Source: Acidobacteriota bacterium
GTDB taxonomy: Bacteria; Acidobacteriota; Thermoanaerobaculia; Thermoanaerobaculales; Sulfomarinibacteraceae
Length of the DNA: 35,985 nucleotides
Direction: 5' to 3'
NCBI GenBank assembly: GCA_022340775.1
Contig: JAJDNH010000085.1
Location: 1 to 35,985 of the forward strand
The notes beneath the pieces were generated by a model that had not been told where the DNA came from, did not search any database, and worked only from the letters and a program-made list of their open reading frames with translations. A program made the translations under genes and the position numbers. This document shows positions 7,944 to 9,003 of this stretch, piece after piece (position 1 is the stretch's first letter; every line of letters starts with the position of its first letter).

Positions 7944-8723
7944 TCAATCCTCGGCTTCCTCCGCCCTCCGTACCTGGATCCTGATCCCGCTGCTGTGGGA
8001 CAGCTCGTCCTTTTCGACCATTCCCAGTGACGAGAGGGCGTACAGTACACGGGCGTTGACACCCGGCGACAGGGGCCCGTCTTCGCACAGCTGCAGCAAC
8101 GTCAACTTGCCGTCGACCATTTCCAAGAGGCGTTGCTCTTCCGGCTGGAGGCGAAGGCCCGACAGGTGGTCCCCCCTGCGGGCAGGCATGTACACAGCGC
8201 TTCTTCCCCCCAGGCGTGCGGTCACGCTCCTACCATCTGCGATCCGCCTGCATCCGGCAACGATCGCCGCCGGAGTCGGGATCTTGAGCTTGTACACCTC
8301 GTCGTCGCGGAACCGGCCGACCTGGAAGGTCACCTCTCCCTCCTCCCAGTCGAACATGCTCCACAAGATCACTTGTACATGCTCGCGTACCGCCGGACCG
8401 AGCTCCTCCGGAGCCAGGAATCCCAGCTCGACGAGAATCGTGCCGTGACGCTTGCCCGGCGACCGTGCCATCTCTCCGGCCGACACACGGAGCTGCGCCT
8501 TGGTGATCTTCCCCTCGGCCAAGAGGTGGTCGCCGAGACTCTCGCGCCGGTCGTTCGAGGTCGCGAAGATCACATCCCCATCGGAGATGAAGATCCTCTT
8601 CGTCACTCCCTCGTGGCGCAGCTCCATGACACCGGGCACCCGGTACCGGTGGATCGTCGCCAACATCTCGGGCAGGGGCGTCTGCGACAGGTTGCCCCTG
8701 TAGATGAACTCTCCCTCAGACAT
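7944..8723 (-). CDS. DUF4388-domain protein
   Basis: 259 residues. The N-terminal ~110 residues (FIYRGNLSQTPLPEMLATIHRYRVPGVMELR, FISDGDVIFATSNDRRESLGDHLL) match the DUF4388/PatA-N-like module often attached to response regulators and GTPase-linked proteins in Deltaproteobacteria and Acidobacteriota. The following MFDWEEGEVTFQVGRF segment is typical of its second half. The C-terminal ~90 residues look like a winged-helix/bundle (RLLEMVDGKLTLLQLCE, VNARVLYALSSLGMVEKDE). There is no receiver or enzymatic domain, so it is probably a stand-alone interaction protein. GAGGGAG just upstream supports the ATG at 8723. No function can be assigned. Confidence 0.82.
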   Translation of the reverse strand: MSEGEFIYRGNLSQTPLPEMLATIHRYRVPGVMELRHEGVTKRIFISDGDVIFATSNDRRESLGDHLLAEGKITKAQLRVSAGEMARSPGKRHGTILVELGFLAPEELGPAVREHVQVILWSMFDWEEGEVTFQVGRFRDDEVYKLKIPTPAAIVAGCRRIADGRSVTARLGGRSAVYMPARRGDHLSGLRLQPEEQRLLEMVDGKLTLLQLCEDGPLSPGVNARVLYALSSLGMVEKDELSHSSGIRIQVRRAEEAED

Positions 8724-8753: not shown

Positions 8754-8852
8754 TGGCGGAAGCGCAAGGGAATCGAACCCTCCGACCGGCCCTCACCGGA
8801 CCGGCCCAACGGATTTGAAGTCCGCGGAAGCCACCAGGCCCCGTGCGCTTCC
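8754..8852 (-). tRNA. selC: tRNA-Sec (anticodon UCA), CCA encoded
   Basis: Hallmarks of bacterial tRNA-Sec are all visible on the minus strand. There is an 8-bp acceptor stem (GGAAGCGC with GCGCTTCC), a 6-bp D stem around a 4-nt TGGT loop, and a 5-bp anticodon stem with loop CTTCAAA carrying UCA (8816-8818). The long variable arm folds as a 7-bp stem (CCGGTCC/GGGCCGG) with a 5-nt loop. The T arm has GGTTCGATTCCC, and G73 precedes an encoded CCA (8754-8756). The length is 99 nt including CCA. UCA reads UGA, so this tRNA inserts selenocysteine with SelA/SelB/SelD, none of which is in the window. Confidence 0.97.
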
Positions 8853-8927: not shown

Positions 8928-9003
8928 GGGGCCGTAGCTCAGTTGGGAGAGCGCATGAATGGCATTCATGAGGTCGTCGGTTCGATCCCGATCGGCTCCA
9001 CCA
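8928..9003 (+). tRNA. tRNA-Ala (anticodon GGC), CCA encoded
   Basis: A 76-nt cloverleaf with acceptor GGGGCCG/CGGCTCC, D arm TAGCTCAGTTGGGAGAGC, anticodon stem CATGA/TCATG with loop ATGGCAT, and T arm CGGTTCGATCCCG. The discriminator is A (9000) and the encoded CCA is at 9001-9003. Anticodon GGC (8961-8963) reads GCC/GCU alanine codons. Identity rests on the anticodon; the usual G3-U70 pair is also present (third acceptor pair is G-T). Confidence 0.97.

Follow-up and report, generated by a model that had tools for sequence, protein, structure and literature searches.

A selenocysteine tRNA gene and the probable selenocysteine-decoding system of a bacterium of the Thermoanaerobaculia

The gene at positions 8754–8852 (minus strand) of the window, that is, of the whole stretch of 35,985 nucleotides analyzed here, which makes up one entire contig (C178), is almost certainly the selC of an ordinary and complete bacterial selenocysteine (Sec)-decoding system, the other parts of which lie on other contigs of the same assembly. 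The insertion of Sec is itself a prediction, and its probable targets are two peroxiredoxins of the PrxU type and one TlpA-like protein. The genes concerned, their in-frame UGA codons, and the hairpins behind these codons are present in the genome, an assembly of 3.83 Mb in 251 contigs with a completeness of 93%, from which genes may for that reason be absent.

The tRNA-Sec gene

ARAGORN called a tRNA-SeC with the anticodon TCA at 8754–8852 on the minus strand of the window, and the Rfam model RF01852 matched at 8758–8852 of the same strand over its full length (model positions 1–91), with 74.9 bits against a cut-off of 47 (E 9e-14), which is the best match of this model in the whole genome. 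The preliminary description had read a tRNA-Sec from the letters alone, with no strand given, and had named a covariance-model search as the check; the agreement of the two programs bears this identity out.

Read from the raw sequence, the acceptor stem has 8 bp (GGAAGCGC/GCGCTTCC), the D stem has 6 bp, including two G.U pairs, and a 4-base loop (GGGGCC UGGU GGCUUC), the anticodon loop is CUUCAAA with the anticodon UCA at 8816–8818, the variable arm is long, the discriminator is G73, and CCA is encoded. The T stem (GAGGG/CCCTT) closes with a G.U pair, which gives the 8/5 form. A 9/4 form is also possible in this gene through a ninth acceptor pair, A-U, at which place four relatives (L220, L233, L240, and L241) have U opposite U; in either form the acceptor domain has 13 bp. 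The UCA anticodon, the 13-bp acceptor domain, the 6-bp D stem, the long variable arm, and G73, all found in this gene, are the structural features by which we judged a tRNA-Sec, following the passages on its structure in PMC7609411 and PMC5330540. Together with the full-length match over the cut-off and the encoded CCA, they are shared with bacterial tRNA-Sec (selC; RF01852), from which nothing notable differs, the T stem of this gene closing with G.U. As to its place, this selC adjoins a DUF4388 gene and a zinc-ribbon gene, on a contig apart from selA, selB, and selD. Single-strand RNA folding gave a z-score of −3.23 and did not recover the cloverleaf, and the covariance model was relied on instead.

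RF01852 had 15 matches in the genome, three of them over the cut-off. Two of these three, at C193:27078 (49.1 bits) and C135:14562 (47.9 bits), are tRNA-Ser by ARAGORN and were rejected as tRNA-Sec, and among the eight best matches one, the gene at 8754–8852, is a tRNA-Sec by the same program. Because two tRNA-Ser genes exceed it, the gathering score of RF01852 taken alone overcalls tRNA-Sec.

Selenocysteine machinery in the genome and its distribution

Profile searches of the genome found selA on contig C105 (479 bits, cut-off 267.9), selB on contig C133 (356 bits, cut-off 242.25), and selD on contig C99 (369.5 bits, cut-off 125), so that the three genes taken as the mark of the Sec-decoding trait occur together in one genome. 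The SelB protein has both the SelB winged helix (PF09107) and the SelB beta-barrel (PF25461). The preliminary description had tied the fate of the tRNA-Sec to a search of the genome for these three genes and had implied that their absence from its vicinity was odd; the search left the tRNA-Sec standing, and the oddity disappears with the finding of all three elsewhere in the same assembly.

The SelD of this genome, a Cys form, reads GLGCACK near its N-terminal end and makes up the C-terminal half of a protein of 760 aa, whose N-terminal half is a cysteine desulfurase of the NifS/IscS type. This fusion (locus L110:1447-3726 on C99) is encoded in a single frame. Among the 30 best-scoring SelD loci compared, one-frame NifS-SelD fusions were found in four (this genome, G053, G044, and G013), and in a further four selD is preceded by a NifS-like gene in a different frame. 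NifS-SPS (NifS-SelD) fusions have already been published (Mariotti et al. 2015, PMC4561486), and those treated in the relevant part of that paper likewise join an N-terminal NifS-type desulfurase to a Cys-form SelD; that part gives two prokaryotic cases, compared with this genome and three relatives in the 30 loci here.

From the families to which these genes belong, we infer the charging of the tRNA, the incorporation of Sec, and the activity of the enzymes. In the established bacterial route, outlined in passages of PMC7609411 and PMC5330540, SerRS serylates the tRNA, SelA uses selenophosphate to convert the serylated tRNA, and SelB carries the product to a UGA marked by a hairpin. Here, SerRS would charge the tRNA-Sec with serine, as its G73 and long variable arm suggest; SelA (C105) would convert Ser-tRNA-Sec to Sec-tRNA-Sec with selenophosphate from SelD (C99), to which the fused NifS/IscS-type desulfurase may hand selenium; and SelB (C133) would bring Sec-tRNA-Sec to UGA codons that are followed by a hairpin. 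The probable targets are the PrxU-type peroxiredoxins encoded on C109 and C19 and a lipoprotein-like thiol-disulfide oxidoreductase of the TlpA/ResA type with the motif FWFPTUGGC, encoded on C190.

The distribution of the machinery was followed in 59 genomes sampled up to the level of the class, this genome included. selA had matches in 56 of the 59 genomes, over the cut-off in 55; selD had matches in 57, over the cut-off in 54; and tRNA-Sec was over the cut-off in 54. The patchy use of Sec that the preliminary description had supposed for the Acidobacteriota was therefore not borne out within the class sample, and it is very likely that this acidobacterial class decodes UGA as Sec almost throughout. 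An older survey lists three selenoprotein families and four selenoproteins for Acidobacteria (PMC1794560, Table 2), and the deep-Sep paper, where it deals with Occallatibacter riparius, gives three known selenoprotein genes for it (PMC12013277); on these counts, the use of Sec in the phylum was already known. No paper on Thermoanaerobaculia with selenium was among the top 10 literature matches, and the acidobacterial terms looked for in PMC5029168 were absent from it.

SelD shows a Sec/Cys switch between sister families. It has one in-frame TGA itself in 28 genomes, every one of which belongs to another family of the class, and in the family of the present genome, where it was over the cut-off in 17 of 20 genomes, none of the 17 has a TGA. 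G034, G044, and G053 have a UGA-containing SelD plus a second SelD without UGA.

A tRNA-Sec gene might also be a relic or orphan that persists after the use of Sec has been lost, or that serves otherwise, as a selC-like suppressor or an allo-tRNA. Such a fate would fit a window inside which no sel gene or selenoprotein was found, and allo-tRNAs, which turned up in a search for tRNA-Sec and are alike in structure, have been reported from Acidobacteria among others (PMC7609411, in its account of them). According to the same account, however, the acceptor domain of allo-tRNAs has 12 bp (8/4 or 9/3), against the 13 bp of this gene, which also has the UCA anticodon and G73. With selA, selB, and selD all over their cut-offs in the genome, three UGA-containing redox genes in which the UGA is conserved, and tRNA-Sec over the cut-off in those 54 of the 59 class genomes, we consider a relic or orphan very improbable and keep to the reading of a selC at work in a complete Sec-decoding system.

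Genes with an in-frame UGA and their hairpins

Seven AhpC-TSA (PF00578) matches were found in the genome, three of which contain one in-frame TGA. Two of the three, on C109 and C19, read DFTFVUATE, and their U aligns with the Cys of the FVCPTE motif in PDB peroxiredoxins, which we take to be the peroxidatic Cys. The C109 copy is a PrxU by the model NF040737 (379 bits, cut-off 270); the scan with this model covered the C109 copy only, and the C19 copy shares 89% identity with it over 199 aa. The likeness to PrxU (NF040737) thus lies in the score over the cut-off and in the U at the peroxidatic position (FTFVUATE), and the difference in the two copies, 89% identical, held by one genome. At 69% identity or more, there were 21 PrxU matches, including the C109 query and its paralogue. 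At least one TGA was found in 20 of them (the query, the paralogue, and 18 in 18 other genomes), all 20 having U at the DFTFVU site, and the remaining match is a 52-aa C-terminal fragment without the site. A literature search for PrxU found no paper. One PrxU homologue (L168, G009:C78:8010-8606) has two in-frame TGAs, of which one is at the DFTFVU site.

The third TGA-bearing match, at C190:35928-37253, encodes a protein of 442 aa with a redoxin domain (PF00578, 73 bits; PF08534, 71 bits) that reads FWFPTUGGCRAELP, where U replaces the first active-site Cys (UxxC type). Judged by eye, its N-terminus resembles a lipoprotein signal (MRKRGLLVAAVAVAATIAPGCSK), and similar lipoprotein-like starts were seen in the same way in L186, L188, L193, L196, L242, and L243. 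The protein has about 300 extra N-terminal residues to which Pfam gives no match; that this part is TPR-like is only an impression.

Among the 59 class genomes, 16 TlpA-like matches, one in each of 16 genomes, this one included, start long before the redoxin domain. All 16 have one TGA, at the same codon of the gene; the class relatives are 39%–50% identical to the protein of this genome, and the match in G001 starts at residue 172. A search of the phylum (247 genomes, this one included, matches to E 1e-25) added five further genomes with 32%–42% identity, in which the matches start at query residues 25, 43, 201, 246, and 246. All five again have one TGA, which is at the same codon in three of them and, by BLAST alignment, in the last two. 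UGA is thus carried by all 21 TlpA-like matches, this one included, that reach well upstream of the redoxin domain, and no match of such reach without UGA was found in the class and phylum samples. The stop-free class matches start at query residue 291 or beyond and cover the redoxin part only; among them, G036:C409 is a C-terminal fragment of 83 residues (52% identity) that lies beyond the UGA site. There may thus be Cys forms in which the N-terminal part has diverged.

We tentatively suggest, from sequence comparison, that this TlpA-like lipoprotein (C190:35928-37253) could found an undescribed, Sec-only selenoprotein family present in at least four acidobacterial families, with UGA in 21 of 21 members and 32%–50% identity. 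"Undescribed" refers here to the NCBIfam scan, in which no model reaches its cut-off with the protein, to a literature search, and to the entries of one review (PMC13188914). Among these entries are the cd02966 "thiol-disulfide isomerase-like" UxxC and the "UGC-containing TlpA" selenoproteins. With such TlpA/ResA-like selenoproteins (PMC13188914; NF041054, ResA-like WAxxUGC), the protein shares the Redoxin/AhpC-TSA fold and the U in a UxxC-type active site; it differs from them in its N-terminal residues without a Pfam match, its lipobox-like start, and the motif FWFPTUGGCR, and it reaches 55 bits with NF041054 against a cut-off of 300. If the suggestion is true, a thiol-disulfide enzyme of these bacteria that lies outside the inner membrane would depend on selenium. 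With a conserved UGA and a bSECIS-like hairpin, and with no NCBIfam model at its cut-off, this candidate family would be a test case for Sec-only redox proteins.

The genome hence has three genes in which a single in-frame UGA occupies a catalytic position and is followed by a bSECIS-like hairpin, conserved in relatives, and since the sweep of the genome for Sec forms covered PF00384, PF02627, PF00578, and SelD only, this selenoproteome is a lower bound of at least three. Two molybdopterin enzymes (PF00384) and two CMD/AhpD-like proteins (PF02627) were matched in the sweep, none of them in a UGA form. Because the UGAs are conserved, an assembly error at the three codons is unlikely. The preliminary description had urged that TGA-truncated ORFs of this genome be re-examined, and rightly so, as its UGA-interrupted ORFs include probable real selenoproteins, the two PrxU and the TlpA-like protein. 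In such genomes, an automatic annotation is apt to cut PrxU and the TlpA-like gene short.

The hairpin that the TlpA-like genes can form has a 6-bp stem, with 3 bp more below it in most, and the loop AGUUG (AGUUA in L190 and L243), and lies 16 nt past the UGA; that of PrxU has a 7-bp stem and the loop GGUC (GGCC in L182) and lies 17 nt past the UGA. Both were compared with the bSECIS limits in a figure legend of PMC13188914: a loop of 3–9 nt, a stem of 4–16 bp, G in the first two loop positions, a distance of 16–37 nt from the UGA, and −7.5 kcal/mol. Counting ungapped stems only, 42 of 43 UGA sites, which are related and not independent trials, fell within these limits (18 of 19 TlpA-like and 24 of 24 PrxU-type), the failing TlpA-like site (L190) missing them by 0.2 kcal/mol. 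None of five Cys peroxiredoxins did so; two of the Cys forms, L172 and L175, fold near the place of the hairpin, with no G at either of the first two loop positions. As a background, the limits held at 832 of 7858 codons (10.6%) of 17 window genes, the chance rate in this GC-rich genome being about one in 10 codons. A second, more distant group of UGA-bearing peroxiredoxins (L176, L178, and L181), about 40% identical to PrxU, has a hairpin of its own, with 8 bp and the loop GGC, 20 nt past the UGA.

Two alignments of the hairpins were tested against shuffles. The first held all 16 class TlpA-like matches, a false pattern match on the other strand of L196 being left out; the second held 21 PrxU sequences (20 with at least 69% identity, and L182 with 62%), the UGA-bearing L176, L178, and L181, with their other hairpin, and the Cys forms being left out. 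In the TlpA-like alignment, 97.9% of the cells are paired and two pairs are double-changed; out of 500 shuffles, none reached the cells paired or the covariation score, 60 reached the count of double-changed pairs, and 498 reached the further pair types. In the PrxU alignment, 100% of the cells are paired and two pairs are again double-changed, with five of 500 shuffles reaching the double-changed pairs, 211 the further pair types, and none the covariation score. These covariation counts come from sets in which related sequences were kept, and such values can arise from relatedness alone. Slid versions of both alignments had fewer paired cells and lower covariation scores. Folding of single sequences strongly supported the TlpA-like hairpin (z −4.73) and weakly the PrxU hairpins, with z −1.50 (15 of 200 dinucleotide shuffles as good) and z −1.25 (20 of 200), so that in stability neither PrxU hairpin region, taken singly, stands out clearly from its dinucleotide shuffles.

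The window and its UGA codons

A Pfam scan of the 26 ORFs of the window found no SelA, SelB, SelD, or known selenoprotein, and none of the matches listed for the selA, selB, selD, PF00384, PF02627, and PF00578 models in the genome is on contig C178, in keeping with the preliminary description, which had seen no such gene here. The Pfam families in the window are T2SSE (two genes), T2SSF, a PilS-like histidine kinase, a sigma-54 regulator, DUF192, a zinc ribbon, DUF4388, an ATP-synthase-type ATPase, a CofH/MqnC-like protein, an acyl transferase, the FabH and PlsX types, biotin carboxylase, carboxyltransferase, and the TldD/PmbA and YchF types. The nearest named match of the FabH protein is from Acidobacteria bacterium RBG_13_68_16 (64% identity), which fits the Acidobacteriota. 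The DUF4388 gene (PF14332; 7944–8723, minus strand) is next downstream of the tRNA-Sec and shares its strand. The TGA of this gene is a real stop, and its link to Sec is so far one of position. Past this TGA, in the same frame, comes the zinc-ribbon gene (PF09723; 7548–7826, minus strand), presumably of the FmdB type and in a Cys form.

Three in-frame TGAs with a coding signal on both sides were found in the final sweep of the window and rejected as Sec codons: the first marks where the T2SSE gene gives way to the T2SSF gene, and the second and third are antisense to the histidine-kinase and CofH-like genes. A laxer list held more candidates, the top ones of which were inspected by eye.

A general reassignment of UGA, or a suppressor tRNA reading it as, for example, Trp or Cys, would equally leave the frame open across the UGA in the three redox genes. 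In the window, however, the DUF4388 gene ends at UGA before a separate zinc-ribbon gene, and a T2SSE-family gene ends at UGA before the T2SSF gene at 2574, while the three UGAs stand at catalytic redox positions with bSECIS-like hairpins in a genome that has the Sec machinery. Reassignment is thus still less credible than a relic tRNA, and Sec remains the preferred reading of these three codons. Just as far-fetched is a selenoprotein hidden in the window through read-through of the DUF4388 TGA (7944–7946), past which the frame is open for 131 codons with a positive coding score, because that stretch is a gene of its own, encoding the zinc-ribbon protein that starts MPLYEYQC, the coding score drops between the two genes, and their relative frame varies among relatives. 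The zinc-ribbon gene was itself considered as a selenoprotein because the entries of the review in PMC13188914 include a UxxU selenoprotein of the FmdB family; it was rejected, both first-knuckle residues being Cys in 29 of the 30 copies compared and the remaining copy (L236) having a TGA at a point where its reading frame is also disrupted.

On the other side of the tRNA-Sec, its divergent neighbor is a tRNA-Ala(GGC) gene at 8928–9003 on the plus strand (ARAGORN, Rfam), which as far as known stands outside the Sec system; of 23 tRNA-Sec loci scanned, 18 contain a tRNA-Ala(GGC). The tRNA-Sec, DUF4388, and zinc-ribbon genes occur together on one strand in 26 of the 29 loci of relatives compared (L213–L241), so far a conservation of position.
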